NCBI GenBank assembly: GCA_025057295.1
Contig: JANWXO010000004.1
Span: 1-40,982 of the forward strand
Reading direction: 5' to 3'
DNA: 40,982 bases
Source: Candidatus Binatia bacterium
GTDB taxonomy: Bacteria > Desulfobacterota > Binatia > Bin18
The number at the start of each line of letters is the position of its first letter. Within the stretch, counting starts at the first letter, position 1. Position numbers and translations under genes: made by a program. Under the pieces are notes generated by a model. The model ran no database searches. It saw only the letters and a list, made by a program, of their open reading frames with translations, and was not told where the DNA came from. Positions 1-9,665 of the stretch are shown one piece after another.

Positions 1-2719
1 TCTCCGCCGCAGTTTCCAGGCATGTCGCGTACCATCGCGTTACTTTGTCTCGAAGCCGTTCATCCGACCTGAGGCGTTCGAGGGGAGCCTCAGCAGGTAT
101 GGCATCGGAGAGTAAATTCTTCCACTCTCCCACGGTCAGTTGTTCCATTCGGGTGCGGAGACCGACCGGGTTGACAAGCCAGTCGCGGACGGCGTCCTTG
201 TCGTTTTCAAAGACATCGAGGTCTACGACGGGCAGGAGATCCCCTATGGCTTGCTCGGTTTTCTTCTCTGGCAGCCAAAGTTTGGCGAGAGGTATGTTTT
301 CTTTTCTTCCACCCCGCGTTGGCAGGCGTAGGAGCTCGCGGATTTCCCACCACCACTTCGCATCTATCTGCCATGGCCTATCGTATTGTTCTCGGCTTAA
401 CCTTCCCTCGGCACGAATTTTGGCACGGCAGCAGTAGTAGGTCTCCCAGTTCTTCGCTATCAAACGAATAAGCAAGGGAGCATGGGCGCTGTCGATATCC
501 TTTATCGCAAGATGGTCCAGGGTAGAGACTGCCTCAACTTTGCTGACCCTTCGACCCGAAGGATCTTTTTCTTTGTCCAGATATCCCTTCCACTGGTCAC
601 ATCCTTGTGGTAATTGCCCCAACGCGGTGTTTCTCGACTGCTCCACAATCCTTGGACACTCAGCAACACCAAGCCACTTCAAGACCCCGCGCAACTTTTC
701 AGCATCGCCAAGCTTCTCATCTCTTGCAACCCACGGTACTCCTCGGATGCCATCATAGAGCTTAGCAAGCAAATCGTTTCCCCATTCGCAGCCGAAGTAA
801 GCTTTACCAGCCTCTGTCCAGGTTGCTCCGCCCGCCTGTTGCGCAAGCGGCACGGGACACCGCTTGAGCTCGTCTGTGACTTTAACCGTCTCATACCAAT
901 CCTGCTCCAAAATGAAACGTAGAAAGCGCTGCGGATCGCCTTGTTTGTCTGCCCAGTAGTTCGCAATCGCTTGACCGACAGCACGCTGAATAACATCCAC
1001 TCCAGGTTCCTTAATTCCCAGCTCTTCGACAAGCTTCTTAACCGAATCCCTCTGCCTCGCTTCACTTTGGATTCGGTCGCGGAACCAGTCCTCCACGAAG
1101 GTCAGCGGCAGCCAATCGGGCAGATTGCCTACAGCAGCATTGGGCTTCCACGTTACAATGCGATCGACAAGGTCGGATGGTTGCAAAAGCCGGTTGCCAA
1201 CAGGAATTATTGGCAAGTTTTTCGCTTGTTCTACTCGCTTCTTGTGTTCTTCGCCATATGGTTTCGCGCCTACCCAAGCAGCAAGCCACTCCCAACAAGT
1301 CCAGACCCATTGTGTATCGCCGGCGAGCGAGTCTGCATTCTCGGCGATAGCCGCCATCAAGGCTTGATCCCGGATTTGCTCGCAGTTCAATGCTTCAAGT
1401 GCCGTGCATGCCTCCTTGTCGTCATCGAACGAGGGGTGCAGCAGTCGATCACGGACACTTGTAGCCTTGAGCAAGGTGCTCGCCAAGTCGGCACGGACGC
1501 TGAAGGAAATAAATTTAGCCTCGCGAACGGTGAGCCGTTTCTGACCTTCGACGTCAGCAAGTCGCAAGCCTGCTCTTGCTTTTGCAGCTATGCGCTGCCA
1601 GAGGTCATCGGCAACCGGATGGGATGCTCTGTCGCCGAACGGAACAAGTAGGGCAGCATGACTGCTCGGGGATGCTGGGCAGTATGAATCGTCGACGAAG
1701 TTGCAGACATGACACGCGAGCCTGTCGGCGACCCACTCATTAAATGGACTGCTGTCTATCGGTATAATGGCTGTTCGGTCACCCTTCACCAAGAACTCGG
1801 CGTGAAGCAGCAGCCGCACGGGGCCCATCTGCTCCGTGGGATAGAAAACATGGACGGGAAGCCAGTTTGATGTCGGAATGACACAATTGCTTTCAATCGG
1901 AGCAGCGATGAGGAAGCTGACCTGGTGCTCCGACGGCCCCAGTCCCTGCAGCACCTCCTCAGGAGGTGACTCCGTGTGTTTGACTACACGCCACTGAACC
2001 GGAGTCCGTCCTCGGCTGTCGCTTAACGACCAGACACCGTCGCCGGGATTCAGGACCACCTTCAGTCCGGGGGCTGTGATTTCCCGAAGGTGCCGGAAGG
2101 CAAAGAGCGCATGTGGCGGCCACTCCCCCAGCAGTTGCTCTGCCTTCTGCTTGCCCTCAGGAGAAATGCCAGGCAGCCTGACGACCGTTCTGTATTGCGA
2201 AAAATCCCTGAGTTTCGGATCTTGCTGGTGCGCCTCATTCCATGAGATGGGAAACGGAATCCATTGGTAAGGCACATGCTCGTCATTGAGACCATTTTCG
2301 CAGAGCCACGCCCTGGTCTTCGCAAAACTGAACTCGACACCTTCGCCGTCTACCATGAGCACTTGCGGATTTTGAGAAATCTCGTACACCGACTTGAACC
2401 CTACACCTTTACGGCCTATGGTACCGGCAACCTTGTCCGAGAGATCGGTACCGCAGATGGCGCTTATGCTTTCAGGCTTCAGCCCACAACCATTGTCTGC
2501 CACATAGACAGTGTCGTCCTCGACGAGGATCAGGACCTTTGAGGCACGTGCATCATCGCTATTCTGCAAGAGCTCAAAGAGCCATCGTCCGACATGGTCT
2601 TTGGCTGCCCGATCCGCCCCGCGTGCGTCGCGGACTATTTGGTCGGGGTCGGCCTTGTAGACATTAAGGCGTTTGGTTCTGAATTGTTCGATAGCGTCTT
2701 CGAATGGTCTGTCTTTCAT
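1..2719 (-). CDS. Sacsin-like GHKL/HSP90-type ATPase domain protein, partial (C-terminus beyond left edge)
   Basis: Manual minus-strand translation from ATG at 2719 begins MKDRPFEDAIEQFRTKRLNVYKADPDQIVRDARGADRAAKDHVGRWLFELLQNSDDARASKVLILVEDDTVYVADNGCGLKPESISAICGTDLSDKVAGTIGRKGVGFKSVYEI and stays open to base 1. LFELLQNSDDA, DNGCGL and GRKGVGFKSVY match the GHKL N, G1 and G2 boxes of sacsin-like ATPases. Missing from the ORF track because no stop lies in the window. Confidence 0.85.
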   Translation of the reverse strand, partial: MKDRPFEDAIEQFRTKRLNVYKADPDQIVRDARGADRAAKDHVGRWLFELLQNSDDARASKVLILVEDDTVYVADNGCGLKPESISAICGTDLSDKVAGTIGRKGVGFKSVYEISQNPQVLMVDGEGVEFSFAKTRAWLCENGLNDEHVPYQWIPFPISWNEAHQQDPKLRDFSQYRTVVRLPGISPEGKQKAEQLLGEWPPHALFAFRHLREITAPGLKVVLNPGDGVWSLSDSRGRTPVQWRVVKHTESPPEEVLQGLGPSEHQVSFLIAAPIESNCVIPTSNWLPVHVFYPTEQMGPVRLLLHAEFLVKGDRTAIIPIDSSPFNEWVADRLACHVCNFVDDSYCPASPSSHAALLVPFGDRASHPVADDLWQRIAAKARAGLRLADVEGQKRLTVREAKFISFSVRADLASTLLKATSVRDRLLHPSFDDDKEACTALEALNCEQIRDQALMAAIAENADSLAGDTQWVWTCWEWLAAWVGAKPYGEEHKKRVEQAKNLPIIPVGNRLLQPSDLVDRIVTWKPNAAVGNLPDWLPLTFVEDWFRDRIQSEARQRDSVKKLVEELGIKEPGVDVIQRAVGQAIANYWADKQGDPQRFLRFILEQDWYETVKVTDELKRCPVPLAQQAGGATWTEAGKAYFGCEWGNDLLAKLYDGIRGVPWVARDEKLGDAEKLRGVLKWLGVAECPRIVEQSRNTALGQLPQGCDQWKGYLDKEKDPSGRRVSKVEAVSTLDHLAIKDIDSAHAPLLIRLIAKNWETYYCCRAKIRAEGRLSREQYDRPWQIDAKWWWEIRELLRLPTRGGRKENIPLAKLWLPEKKTEQAIGDLLPVVDLDVFENDKDAVRDWLVNPVGLRTRMEQLTVGEWKNLLSDAIPAEAPLERLRSDERLRDKVTRWYATCLETAAE

Positions 2720-2965
2720 GTGCAGAACACGAATTAGGCAACTCTGCAGATTACTCTTTGTAGACGCCGGGTGGCTCTCCTGGTGCATCCATCGCTCTCC
2801 GCTTTCACGGTCTTCTCCGATACCGTTGGCTAGTCTCAACCCCTGATCATGGGGGATCGCCCGCGGCCAGGTCAAGGTGCGCTCGGCGTAAAGACAGTCG
2901 GCGATGCCCAGTTCCAGACCCTGACGGCCGTTATGTGTTCCAGCGCAGATATCCCGTAGAGATCC

Positions 2966-3133
2966 TCATTCGGAGCCGCGTGAGCGGCGTCGGGTGATCT
3001 CCGGTTCTGTGGGAAGGTGCACGGTCCTGATCAGCACCGCGAAGCCACAGACGATGTCGAACTCGTCAGGGTTGAAGGACCGTCCTTGCCGGACCTCCTT
3101 ACGCGGGGCGGAAACTTTGCACCAAGGTTCCAT
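2966..3133 (-). pseudogene. N-terminal stub resembling DUF499-family ATPase (55 aa)
   Basis: Translation MEPWCKVSAPRKEVRQGRSFNPDEFDIVCGFAVLIRTVHLPTEPEITRRRSRGSE*. The first ~28 aa resemble the start of DUF499 proteins (WxxVxxPRxEVREGRSFxPDEFAI, recalled from memory); the rest does not. Confidence 0.5.
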
Positions 3134-3145
3134 GACGATGTCTCT

Positions 3146-3367
3146 CTAGGGTGTCGTTCGATACTCGATCTTGCGGGCATCGGTAACGCGCTTCGACGCG
3201 TCGAGCAGACGTTTCTCCTCGCTGCCCTTCGGGTAGAGAGCGAAGAGCGCGTTGGCGAGCCGGAGAAACTCCGGGCCGCTGACGTGGACGGTCTCCTCTC
3301 GCATCGGCTCGCTGAACAACGAGCCAGTGAGAATCTGTCCTTGACGTAGGAGCTGCTTCTCACTCAT
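3146..3367 (-). pseudogene. Chimeric stub: SNF2/DUF3883-helicase-like N-terminus joined to an unrelated tail (possibly DUF1156-type C-terminus)
   Basis: MSEKQLLRQGQILTGSLFSEPMREETVHVSGPEFLRLANALFALYPKGSEEKRLLDASKRVTDARKIEYRTTP*. GQILTGSLFSEPMRxETV resembles the start of SNF2-type helicases; FLRLANALxALYPKGSEEKRLLDA looks like a different protein's C-terminal region. Confidence 0.45.
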
Positions 3368-3479
3368 CGTGGCGATTTCTTCCGCGGGAGTGTCGTATCT
3401 CGTATGTCCACTTTTTCCTTGCAAGGGCGAGCCGCTGTCGCAGCTCCCGGATGAGCGCGGGGACGTTCTCATTCTTCAC
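3360..3479 (-). pseudogene. Truncated XRE-type helix-turn-helix start (39 aa)
   Basis: GTG start; VKNENVPALIRELRQRLALARKKWTYEIRHSRGRNRHDE*. NVPALIRELRQRLxL is typical of XRE-regulator starts, then similarity stops. Confidence 0.35.
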
Positions 3480-3637
3480 GGCGACACCTCGAACCCTGGC
3501 CTGCGAACGCGCTGGGGACTATCTGGGACGGCATGGGCATCGCTCTCGTAGTCGATACGGTCGTCGTGCACGAACCAGCGCCACACTCCCGGGACCACCT
3601 CGTCAATCTGCTGGGCTATTGCTTTGGGTTCCGACAT
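3476..3637 (-). pseudogene. Truncated MBL-fold-hydrolase-like start (53 aa)
   Basis: MSEPKAIAQQIDEVVPGVWRWFVHDDRIDYESDAHAVPDSPQRVRRPGFEVSP*. VxPGVWRWxVHDDRIDxxSDAxAV resembles MBL-fold protein starts; stop overlaps the next GTG (GTGA). Confidence 0.35.
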
Positions 3638-3645
3638 GATCAGCT

Positions 3646-3888
3646 TTACCCGCCTGCGACCGGCGGGAAAATGCTCACCGCATCCCCGTCAGCCAGCGGA
3701 CGGTCAAACTCGCGGGTCTGCTCGCCGTTGATCAGCACCATCTGTGCCAGCTCCACAGGAATATTGAGCTGACGCAGCAGGGTCGCGAGGGTCGCTCCCT
3801 CGTCGAGGGTCAGGATGGCTTTCCCACCCGAAGCTCCAGAGGGGAGATGCTTACGCAGAGTGGCAAAGAGTTTGACTTCGATTCGCAT
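3646..3888 (-). CDS. MoaD/ThiS-family sulfur carrier protein
   Basis: MRIEVKLFATLRKHLPSG...GDAVSIFPPVAGG*, 80 aa, beta-grasp-like with C-terminal GG; last gene of the AOR operon. Confidence 0.88.
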   Translation of the reverse strand: MRIEVKLFATLRKHLPSGASGGKAILTLDEGATLATLLRQLNIPVELAQMVLINGEQTREFDRPLADGDAVSIFPPVAGG

Positions 3889-3949
3889 CAGATTCTCGTC
3901 TCGTCCAGTCTTGGTCCGTCTGGACAGCCCCATGTGGCCGCCTTGATCC

Positions 3950-5490: not shown

Positions 5491-7335
5491 TCAGACAAGG
5501 CCGAGCTCTTGCAGCTTCTCCCGCGTGATCCGGCCCTCGGCATCCCACCCGCGCAGGCGGTAGTACTCGGGCAGCATCTCGCCGAGCCTGTTGACCTGCC
5601 CTTTGGCCGGTCCGGACGGCAGCGGCTCTTCCAGAATGCGCCTGGGCAGGGTGTCGTCCTTGCCGGTCAACCCGGCCCGCTCGTTCCACCAGCGCTCCAG
5701 GTTCCAGATGCGTTCGCCGATCTTGAGCAGCTCCTCCAGCGTATACTGCACTCCAGTCGCCGCAACGAGCTGCGGCAGAATCTCTTCCAAACCGATGCCA
5801 AAGGTGAGGAACTGACAGAGACCGGTGGCATCGACCGTCGCCGTGGCGTCTTGAAACAGTTTGGTGAGTTCGGCCTTCCCTTCGGTTGCCCGCGGGTCCA
5901 TCTGGCGTGGCAACCCCAGAATCTCAGCGGCGACGGTATACGCCTTGAGATGACACGCCCCTCGATTGGAGGTCGCGTAGCCGAGGCCCATCCCTTGAAT
6001 GGCCCGAGCCTCGTAGGCGGCAAACTCTTGCCCCTTGACCCCCATGAAGAGCTCCGGTCGCCCAAACTTCTCGGTCATGCGTTTCGAGCCCTCGGCCAGT
6101 TCGTGGCCGAAACCTTCGCGGTACGCCGTCTTCTCCGCCATGACGAGGAGCGCCTCGGCGCTGCCGAAGGTCAGCGGGATCTCGGTCTGTGCCAGCGAGA
6201 TCGCCCCTTTTTCGTACAGCTCCATCGCCGCCGCGACCGTCGCACCAAAACTGATGGCGTCCATGCCAAGCTCGTTGCAGAGCCAGTTGGCCTTGATCAG
6301 GGCATCGAGATCCCCTATCCCACACTGCGCTCCCAGCGCCCACGCCGCCTCATACTCCGGTCCCTCGCCGGCGATCTGCCAATTGTGCGGGTGGGTCGTC
6401 ACCATATACTTTCCCGCCGCCTCGCCCGGCAGAGCCGTCACTCGTCCACAGGCAATCGTACAGGCAAAACAGGCTTTGTTCGCGACCAGGCGGGTTTCGG
6501 TGAGCCGCTCGCCGCTGATCTCCTCGGCCCGCTCGAATACGCTCTGCTGGTGGTTGCGCGTGGGCAGCGCGCCATGTTCGTTGATCACGTTCACCAACAC
6601 TTCGGTGCCGTAAATCGGCAGTCCCTGGGAGGTGACGGGCGACTCGCGCAGCTTCACCTTCATAGCCCAATGGGCTGCGAAAAACGCGTGGGGATCGGCC
6701 AACCGCACGCCTCCGGTCCCGCGCACGGCGATGGCTTTCAACTGCTTCGATCCCATGACAGCCCCTACACCAGAGCGCCCCGCTGCCCGATGGAGGTCGT
6801 TCATAATACAGGCGAACCGCACCAGCTTTTCCCCTGCCGGCCCGATGCTGGCAACGATCGCGTCCGGCACGCCCAGCTCCTGGCGCAGGTGCTCCTCAGC
6901 CTCCCACACCGTTTTGCCCCAGAGATGGCCAGCATCACGGATTTCCACGCGATCATCGTAGATCCACAGGTAACAGGGCGTCGCTGCACGGCCTTCCACG
7001 ATGAGCAGATCGTAGCCGGCTGCCTTGAGCTCCGGTCCCCAATGGCCGCCGGAATTGGAGGTGGTGATCGCGTTCGTCAGCGGCCCCTTGGTGACCACCA
7101 TGTAACGCGCCCCGCAGGAGGCATTGGTGCCGGTCAGCGGTCCGGTGGCAAATATCAACTTGTTCTCTGGGCTCAAAGGATCGATCTGGGGGTCCACTTC
7201 GGCAAAGAGGTACCTGGCCCCCAGCCCTCGGCCCCCGATAAAATCCCGTGCCCACTCCTCCCGCAGCGGCTCTTTGCTGATCTGCCGCGTGGTGAGATTG
7301 ACCCGCAGTAGCGTACCAGTCCAGCCGTACATCAT
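5491..7335 (-). CDS. Tungsten-containing aldehyde:ferredoxin oxidoreductase (AorB-like)
   Basis: MMYGWTGTLLRVNLTTRQISKEPL...FIGGRGLGARYLF...PENKLIFATGPLTGT; CFACTIAC for the Fe-S cluster; DATGLCQF matches the DxxGLC pterin/cluster motif. Confidence 0.95.
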   Translation of the reverse strand: MMYGWTGTLLRVNLTTRQISKEPLREEWARDFIGGRGLGARYLFAEVDPQIDPLSPENKLIFATGPLTGTNASCGARYMVVTKGPLTNAITTSNSGGHWGPELKAAGYDLLIVEGRAATPCYLWIYDDRVEIRDAGHLWGKTVWEAEEHLRQELGVPDAIVASIGPAGEKLVRFACIMNDLHRAAGRSGVGAVMGSKQLKAIAVRGTGGVRLADPHAFFAAHWAMKVKLRESPVTSQGLPIYGTEVLVNVINEHGALPTRNHQQSVFERAEEISGERLTETRLVANKACFACTIACGRVTALPGEAAGKYMVTTHPHNWQIAGEGPEYEAAWALGAQCGIGDLDALIKANWLCNELGMDAISFGATVAAAMELYEKGAISLAQTEIPLTFGSAEALLVMAEKTAYREGFGHELAEGSKRMTEKFGRPELFMGVKGQEFAAYEARAIQGMGLGYATSNRGACHLKAYTVAAEILGLPRQMDPRATEGKAELTKLFQDATATVDATGLCQFLTFGIGLEEILPQLVAATGVQYTLEELLKIGERIWNLERWWNERAGLTGKDDTLPRRILEEPLPSGPAKGQVNRLGEMLPEYYRLRGWDAEGRITREKLQELGLV

Positions 7336-7817
7336 GCGCTGCCTCCTTCCTGTAGGGCCTGCACTCCGGTGCTGACTCGCTGCGCCCAAGACGCGAGCCA
7401 GTCCGGCTGCCCCATCTCCACGTACGCGATCGCCTCGGTGGGACATGCTGTGACACAGGCCGGGTCTCCGCCGCATAGGTCGCACTTGAAGGCTTTGTGC
7501 GTGTCGGGATTGTAGAACACCGTGCCATAGGGGCAGGCGATAGTGCAGACCGCACAGCCCACACAGACACTATCGAGCACGACCTTCGCACCGGTCGCAG
7601 GGTCGAGGGCGATGGCATTGACCGGACAGGCCGTCATGCACCACGCCTCGTCGCACTGGAAACAGGTATAAGGCGCATAGCTCGCCTGCTCATCGAACAC
7701 GTACACCCGGATCACCGAGCGAGAAGGTTGAAAGGTGCCGGTTTGCACGAAAGAACAGGCGAGCTCGCACTGCATGCAGCCCGTACATCTGTCGGGGATA
7801 ATCCGCAGTTGCCTCAT
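7332..7817 (-). CDS. Four-cluster [4Fe-4S] ferredoxin subunit (AorA/DmsB/HycB-like)
   Basis: 161 aa with 16 motif cysteines: CTGCMQCELAC, CFQCDEAWCMTACP, CVGCAVCTIACP, CDLCGGDPACVTACP; overlaps the AOR start. Confidence 0.93.
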   Translation of the reverse strand: MRQLRIIPDRCTGCMQCELACSFVQTGTFQPSRSVIRVYVFDEQASYAPYTCFQCDEAWCMTACPVNAIALDPATGAKVVLDSVCVGCAVCTIACPYGTVFYNPDTHKAFKCDLCGGDPACVTACPTEAIAYVEMGQPDWLASWAQRVSTGVQALQEGGSA

Positions 7818-7855
7818 AAACCTCTTCCTTTCTGCCGCGGAAAGTCTCGTGTTGC

Positions 7856-7938
7856 CCCTTCGACACGCTCAGGAGGGACGGGAGAGCTCGCCCGAGCGCA
7901 AACCCGCTCGCGCCGAGCCTGAGCAGAGTCGAAGGGCG
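7856..7938. repeat. Imperfect inverted repeat (REP-like intergenic hairpin)
   Basis: Left arm cccttcgacacgctcagg and right arm cctgagcagagtcgaaggg, near-perfect reverse complements. Confidence 0.75.
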
Positions 7939-7952
7939 CCCCTTTCCCCTCT

Positions 7953-9665
7953 TTACATTCCCCCGCTCCCCCGCAGCAACTGCCCAGGATAACTGCCCGT
8001 GTGCTCTCCGTTACGGGTCAGCACCTGACCGTTGACGATGGTATAGTGCATCCCCTCGCACTTCTGGAACAGGCGCGGTCCGTTCCCTGGGAGATCGTAG
8101 ACCGTGTAGGGCGCTAACGGCCGGATGGTGTCTGGATCGAAGATCGCCAGGTCCGCAGCCATCCCCGGCCGGATCATGCCGCGGTCTTTCAGCCCGAGCG
8201 TCGCCGCCGGATAGGCAGCCAACACTTTGATCGCCTTCTCCAGGCTCATCGCCTTATTGTCCCGCACCCAGTGCCCCAGCAGATAGGAGGGGTAGCCGGT
8301 GTCGCAGATATACTGTACGTGCGCACCTCCGTCGGAGAGCGAAACGAGGGAATAGGGGTAGTTGATGATCTTGCAGACCGCACTCTCGTCGCCGTTGGCC
8401 AGCGGCGTGAGGAATTGGGTATCGAGATCCTCTTCCAACGACAGATCCATGAAAACGTCGAAGACATCTCTCCCCTGCGCCGCGGCGATTTCTGCAATGC
8501 TCTTGCCTACGAGGGGTTTGTTCTGCTCCAACTTGACCTCATGCACGTACATGAGATCCCAGCGTTTCGAGAAGGCGCGGGGGACCGGATCCTCGACCAG
8601 ATCGTAGCGGAGTTCGGTACGGATCTGCGGGTCGCGGAAACAGCGCTTGCGCTCTTCCACCGACAGGAAGTGAACTTTCTTCCAGTGGGGCATATCGTCG
8701 AAGATAGTAGCGATATTCTTCAGAGAGAAGCGGAACATGATAGGCCGGCAGCTCGCCTGAGGATAGAGCGGCAGCCCCTCGCGGAAGGCACTGTCGAGCT
8801 GTTCCATCAACTCCGCCCATAGCGTGGGCTGATCCCACTGATGAATCAATCCGATCCAGGTGGTCGGTAGTCTGGTCTCCTTGGCGATCGCCTTGAGCAG
8901 CGCGAGGTCCCGCTCCCGTTCCGACTTGTCCTTCTCGTAAATCAACACCCGCGGGTTGAACTCGAAGAACCCGTGGCCAAACTCGCCGACCGCTTTACAG
9001 ACCTCAAAGAGCTCCTCGTCCTCCGCGACCTTTCCGGGCATGGGCTCGCCGTGGTCACCGACCTGGACCGGCGAACGAGACACGGATAACCCGGCAGCCC
9101 CCGCACGCATGCCCTGGCGGACCAGCTCCTTCATCTGCTCCACTTCAGCACGCGTGGCCGGACGCTCGACGGCATCCAGTCCCATCACGTAGAGGCGGAT
9201 CGGCGAGTGCCCCATGAGGGCGACCAGGTTGAGCGCCGGCCGCACGCGTTCGACGGCGTCGAGATACTCAGGAAAGGTGGTCCAGGTCCACGGCACCCCC
9301 TTTTCCAGGGTCTCCATGCTGACCCCTTCCACCCGCGAGAAGATGTGCATGAGGGGCTCGCGATGCTCGGGCTTGCAGGGGGCAAAGGCGAGGCCACAGT
9401 TCCCCATCACCAGCGTCGTCACCCCGTGCCAACACGACGAGGTGAGCAGCGGGTCCCAAAAGACCTGGGCGTCATAGTGAGTATGGACGTCCACAAACCC
9501 AGGAGCAACGGCAAGACCATCAGCATCGATCACCTCCGGTGCATCACCATCGATGTCTCCGACGGCGACGATGCGTCTCCCCTTGACCGCGATATTCCCC
9601 ATGTAGCTCTCTGCCCCTGACCCGTCGTAGATACGCCCGTTCTTGACCAGTAAATCACAGCGCAT
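7953..9665 (-). CDS. Amidohydrolase family 3 / N-acyl-D-amino-acid deacylase-like protein
   Basis: MRCDLLVKNGRIYDGSGAESYMGNIAVKGRRIVAVGD...VAPGFVDVHTHYDAQVFWDPLLTSSCWHGVTTLVMGNCG. Confidence 0.9.
   Translation of the reverse strand: MRCDLLVKNGRIYDGSGAESYMGNIAVKGRRIVAVGDIDGDAPEVIDADGLAVAPGFVDVHTHYDAQVFWDPLLTSSCWHGVTTLVMGNCGLAFAPCKPEHREPLMHIFSRVEGVSMETLEKGVPWTWTTFPEYLDAVERVRPALNLVALMGHSPIRLYVMGLDAVERPATRAEVEQMKELVRQGMRAGAAGLSVSRSPVQVGDHGEPMPGKVAEDEELFEVCKAVGEFGHGFFEFNPRVLIYEKDKSERERDLALLKAIAKETRLPTTWIGLIHQWDQPTLWAELMEQLDSAFREGLPLYPQASCRPIMFRFSLKNIATIFDDMPHWKKVHFLSVEERKRCFRDPQIRTELRYDLVEDPVPRAFSKRWDLMYVHEVKLEQNKPLVGKSIAEIAAAQGRDVFDVFMDLSLEEDLDTQFLTPLANGDESAVCKIINYPYSLVSLSDGGAHVQYICDTGYPSYLLGHWVRDNKAMSLEKAIKVLAAYPAATLGLKDRGMIRPGMAADLAIFDPDTIRPLAPYTVYDLPGNGPRLFQKCEGMHYTIVNGQVLTRNGEHTGSYPGQLLRGSGGM

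Follow-up and report, generated by a model that had tools for sequence, protein, structure and literature searches.

Gene ends of an Hma-type defence operon in a Binatia contig, a probable relic of serial deletion

Gene pieces between two intact genes

The window that we analysed is one entire contig of 40,982 b from a Candidatus Binatia MAG of 3.55 Mb (479 contigs, 80% completeness). Near one end of it, four abutting minus-strand mini-ORFs occupy 3476-3637 (53 aa), 3360-3479 (39 aa), 3146-3367 (73 aa, counted from the ATG at 3367; the longest mechanical ORF begins at 3472) and 2966-3133 (55 aa), and are separated by a GTGA overlap, an 8-bp overlap and a 12-bp gap, respectively. Comparison with loci fetched from other genomes divides this stretch and its neighbours into the following features, given in the direction of transcription.

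3646..3933, minus strand: intact MoaD/ThiS-like gene (Pfam ThiS, E = 2e-12), the left flank of the putative relic
3528..3637, minus strand: head (37 aa) of a metallo-beta-lactamase-fold (MBL) gene that is complete in locus L024 (81% aa and 79% DNA identity, E = 8e-20)
3480..3527, minus strand: 48 bp separating the MBL head from the XRE head, without a match among the fetched loci
3408..3479, minus strand: head (about 24 aa) of a small XRE HTH gene, the weakest identification; an XRE gene lies upstream of HmaA in L084
3280..3407, minus strand: upstream leader and head of the HmaA helicase gene, the head spanning about 28 aa if read from the ATG at 3367 (L025, 82% DNA identity over 3280-3358, E = 2e-15)
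3197..3279, minus strand: tail of the HmaB (DUF1156) methylase gene (82-89% aa identity over 27 residues to many HmaB C-termini; 80% DNA identity over 3198-3279, E = 2e-14)
3146..3208, minus strand: C-terminus and stop of a DUF2283 antitoxin (E = 2e-9 to slot cargo of L110; 57-72% to four Binatia DUF2283 proteins)
3050..3133, minus strand: head (28 aa) of the HmaC (DUF499) ATPase gene (71% to HmaC residues 1-28, E = 3e-6 for one genome)
2720..3049, minus strand: 330 bp from the HmaC head to the next gene, without a family or a consistent homologue
2..2719, minus strand: intact sacsin-like GHKL ATPase gene, the right neighbour (PADLOC TmtA-like, E = 8e-54; NCBIfam P_loop_sacsin, E = 4e-19)

No useful match came from searching the stubs against Pfam, NCBIfam and PADLOC, for which the stubs, at 40-70 aa, are too short; the pieces were identified by translated and DNA matches to complete genes. 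In a search of the same class, the DNA matches to the MBL, helicase, methylase and DUF499 pieces were sharp-edged, and the HmaC head matched L022 at 78% over 3052-3132 (E = 1e-10). The leader upstream of the HmaA head is similar to those of L025 and L028, and the HmaB tail stops 7 codons short of the usual stop. The XRE head matched the small XRE gene directly before HmaA in L084 (54% over 26 aa, E = 7e-5), with weaker copies, likewise directly before HmaA, in L095 and L112; no significant match to it was found in the class. Among 94 loci, only L024 matched the MBL head. Positions 2720-3049 and 3480-3527 matched nothing among the loci compared and are probably debris of further genes; weak, scattered matches of 2720-2947 in 14 genomes look like chance. 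Plasmid searches with three of the pieces as queries returned no useful match.

A sequence-only reading of the same DNA had described the four mini-ORFs and their overlaps as we find them, and had taken them for the starts of an MBL-like gene, an XRE HTH gene, an SNF2 helicase gene fused to a DUF1156 tail, and a DUF499 gene. Homologues bear out the first, third and fourth of these assignments; the XRE assignment gains a homologue in the expected position and is still the weakest of the set. The same reading had seen the heads of genes as what was kept. Several pieces are indeed heads, but those of HmaB and DUF2283 are tails, so gene ends is the better description.

Both flanks are intact genes. 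The MoaD/ThiS-like gene is the last of its operon in relatives, and unrelated genes come after it in family members. The sacsin-like gene runs beyond the contig end; no homologue of it was found in 150 other genomes of the class, and none with close-relative patterns in the genome collection, and it was probably acquired.

Complete operons, an antitoxin tail and two joins

Hma is a restriction-modification-like, BREX-related defence system, named with its HmaA helicase, HmaB methylase and HmaC ATPase in PMC8565338; the main text of PMC12839542 describes DUF499-centred BREX-related systems with many auxiliary nucleases. Complete operons of the same gene order were found in relatives. In L022, for example, the homologues are a helicase of 1134 aa, a methylase of 1004 aa and an ATPase of 928 aa, called by PADLOC as HmaA (E = 2e-170), HmaB (3e-116) and HmaC (4e-91). 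The helicase, methylase and DUF499 pieces of the window are collinear and co-oriented with the single locus L046 (joint tblastx E = 8e-25), and so all three core genes are present as pieces, in operon order and in one orientation. The proposed origin in a helicase-methylase-DUF499 cluster thus has uncollapsed counterparts; its MBL member does not, as no metallo-beta-lactamase gene adjoining an Hma operon was seen in the inspected loci. In L046 itself, a transposase-like insertion (7334-8691) splits HmaB between residues 465 and 467, and the operon is otherwise complete.

In its own genome (a MAG that is 80% complete), HmaC occurs only as the window piece, with no complete gene and no DUF499 family match; among the matches listed, HmaB too has only its window piece and no complete gene. 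A complete HmaA SNF2 helicase gene is absent from the locus, where about 28 aa remain; the other HmaA matches in the genome, among those listed, are distant SNF2 relatives (33-46%).

The interval of 63 bp that leads from the methylase tail to the DUF499 head reads LLDASKRVTDARKIEYRTTP-stop and matches LDASRHVTEARKIEYQTTA-stop of L110 (E = 2e-9), where a DUF2283 protein (Pfam E = 1e-15) has its C-terminus. In L110 (Chloroflexi), a DUF4258 gene and then the DUF2283 gene lie between complete HmaB and complete HmaC genes. Similar DUF2283 C-termini occur in four other Binatia genomes, three of them adjoining DUF4258. Because the DUF2283 tail of the window matches the cargo of this slot in L110, and likewise sits between the HmaB tail and the HmaC head, the remainder of a cargo gene survives in the window at the place where a relative carries the gene itself. 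The gene pair, which we take to be of the toxin-antitoxin type, is incomplete here: about the last 20 residues of DUF2283 and its stop occupy the same slot as the complete pair of L110, whereas the toxin and the greater part of the antitoxin have been lost.

Two joins could be placed. The HmaA head gives way to the HmaB tail near 3279/3280, at Gly-Pro-Asp/Glu codons (GGnCCnGA) that HmaA and HmaB have in common, and the HmaB tail gives way to DUF2283 at shared Leu-Asp-Ala codons (CTnGAnGC). With the ancestral sequences inferred from relatives, both joins would fit deletion between short direct repeats.

Gene ends in other genomes

End-only relics are not confined to the window. Among orphan HmaB and HmaC pieces in Binatia, 19 of 21 are terminal, that is, within 20 aa of a gene end (for HmaB, among the matches listed). 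Separately, this applies to 5 of 6 HmaC pieces (p = 1e-6 under random placement) and to 14 of 15 HmaB pieces among the matches listed (p = 6e-19); with five-fold over-detection of ends, the values become about 1e-3 and 4e-10. The set was compiled by hand after the pattern had been noticed, and the p values are therefore descriptive. The HmaB ends and the HmaC head are conserved above average, and conservation accounts for part of their bias. A detection effect as the source of the terminal bias was set aside, as the HmaA ends, which rank among that gene's least conserved regions and for which the effect would run in the opposite direction, are still recovered. Internal pieces also occur (L156, L159 and L161).

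In several loci of the class, orphan slots hold intact cargo bracketed by core-gene ends, with the core bodies gone. The bracketed genes lie between an HmaA head and an HmaB head in L142 (an AAA_21 protein and a second protein), between an HmaA tail and an HmaB head in L147 (two proteins) and L160 (a Schlafen/AlbA_2 protein), and between an HmaB tail and an HmaC head in L145 (a PIN protein and another), L049 and L154 (a cargo region in each). One-sided cases are L144 (KAP NTPase), L146 (AAA_13) and L148.

Loci of several phyla in which the core is present carry extra core-gene ends between cargo genes, inside the slot that those ends border:

Between HmaA and HmaB, a duplicated HmaB head with an HmaA tail: L081:15150-17700; L108:15100-15650
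Duplicated HmaA tails alone: L047, L048, L077, L078, L079, L092
Duplicated HmaB heads: L073 (twice), L101, L102
Between HmaB and HmaC, an HmaC head joined to an HmaB tail: L023:7165-7380; degraded in L043:6300-8280
Before HmaA, an HmaA head: L083:1180-1400

Such duplicated ends would be the expected trace of additive cargo gain, through one homologous and one illegitimate crossover or through unequal crossover. L091 was excluded from this group, its HmaB appearing interrupted rather than duplicated. In two genomes of one genus, HmaA heads with internal deletions, located at what seems to be the same site (L025:11034-14663; L028:1-1215), precede different defence-type genes, an SNF2 helicase and an HsdM-like (type I methylase) gene.

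Origin of the stretch and fate of Hma cargo

The stretch is probably a dead Hma operon, DUF499-centred and BREX-related, that was cut down by serial deletions at short shared sequences, and we infer that a complete operon formerly stood at this site. The starting state would have been XRE-HmaA-HmaB-(DUF4258-DUF2283)-HmaC, with the MBL head as its neighbour. All gene bodies would then have been lost through serial deletion between short stretches of shared sequence, and the ends left in their original order, presumably the core bodies first, with the cargo kept, and the cargo afterwards. Piece homology, order and orientation, the two joins, the DUF2283 tail and the end-only relics elsewhere all point this way, and the serial internal deletions proposed from the sequence are upheld, although not as a single isolated collapse, since such relics recur across the class. 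The reading is drawn from one MAG, with a weakly supported XRE piece and 48 bp and 330 bp without a match.

Under random deletion, the chance that three core pieces would all lie at gene ends is 3e-5 (calculated post hoc), and five or more separate deletions that each leave a gene-end piece of 60-130 bp would be improbable. An extra cause of end survival must therefore be assumed. We propose that gene ends survive because adjoining cargo shields them: as the orphan slots suggest, cargo that consists partly of addictive toxin-antitoxin pairs may protect the neighbouring core-gene ends from deletion.

Of the other explanations, the one that fares best holds that no complete operon ever stood here and that the Hma pieces arrived as luggage of cargo that was later lost, the route being homology-facilitated illegitimate recombination or unequal crossover. 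This mechanism has been proposed for T6SS orphan immunity gene arrays, where modules are gained additively by homology-facilitated illegitimate recombination and older genes are left behind (PMC5361080). Consistent with it, core-intact loci bear duplicated ends in the bordering slot (HmaB head with HmaA tail, HmaC head with HmaB tail), and end-cargo-end slots exist without core genes. However, arrival with cargo predicts joins from the head of a downstream gene to the tail of an upstream one, such as HmaB head to HmaA tail, whereas the window joins an HmaA head to an HmaB tail, as core loss gives, and holds XRE, HmaA, HmaB, cargo and HmaC pieces all in operon order. We consider this origin unlikely.

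Mis-assembly, in which gene ends were joined across bodies that the assembler had passed over, had been raised from the sequence and is less probable still, for all that the MAG is as fragmented as described. The sequences shared at the joins are only about 8 bp, and assembly words are far longer than that. Conserved residues have also drifted. At columns kept at 90% or more, the HmaC head deviates at 3 of 18, as against 0-2 (most often 0) in complete genes in a comparison set of 44 distinct heads; the HmaA head and the HmaB tail each have one deviating conserved column, within the range of complete genes. On sequence grounds, the HmaC-head deviations would fit drift in an operon already inactive, rather than a working one that had been newly mis-joined. 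In addition, independent assemblies contain similar end-only relics, among them L142, which lies mid-contig in a contig of 1.07 Mb.

A single complex template-switching event, copying several short operon stretches in order with no serial deletions, would explain several short collinear pieces within 600 bp and the very short shared sequence at the joins. Nothing in such an event would single out gene ends, and relics made up of ends alone are found at further loci, which makes this a very improbable origin.

That the mini-ORFs are translated into a genuine set of small proteins, or form a translation-coupled leader retained for the downstream gene, is scarcely credible: their starts and stops do overlap or nearly abut on one strand, but stops as few as in the window occur in 39% of dinucleotide shuffles (p = 0.39), conserved residues have drifted, the ORFs cross the joins, the start of the next gene lies 246 bp from the last stub, and no whole-stub homologues were found. 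The openness of the ORFs by itself is not unusual, and the idea that they were kept abutting for translation coupling was dropped on the same stop count. The stretch probably encodes nothing functional now.

As a dead operon, the stretch resembles several known situations. It has all three core genes of the Hma system (PMC8565338; PMC12839542) as pieces in the same order and orientation, but no complete gene, and would be a relic rather than a working system. In T6SS immunity arrays, as at Hma loci, parts of older modules stay behind when new modules are gained at fixed places (PMC5361080); those arrays keep whole immunity genes, whereas Hma loci keep short core-gene ends and the core may vanish. 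Ordinary pseudogene decay by deletion shares the short sequences at joins, the lost frames and the relaxed constraint, but leaves random internal pieces, whereas what survives of Hma in several genomes is almost always a gene end (the pieces of L156, L159 and L161 being internal). The words remnant, cargo, pseudogene, truncated and recombination are all absent from the main text of PMC12839542, and in the open-access literature we found no account of end-only Hma relics or of duplicated core-gene ends in cargo slots.

A dead operon by itself is ordinary; what may matter is the survival, in many genomes, of gene ends instead of random pieces, several of them still bracketing intact toxins or nucleases that have lost their core system. 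Such recurring footprints hint at how Hma-type clusters gain and lose parts. It is possible, and we put it forward tentatively, that the cargo of Hma operons sits in fixed slots and is acquired, relocated and retained independently of what happens to the core, that each exchange leaves core-end footprints, that cargo outlives the core as an orphan slot, and that strings of gene ends, as in the window, are the last stage. If so, the footprints would allow past cargo and past defence systems to be read back. If the pattern proves general, annotation of orphan defence genes should seek flanking core-gene ends, which would point to the system from which the cargo came and would allow the turnover of defence operons to be measured.
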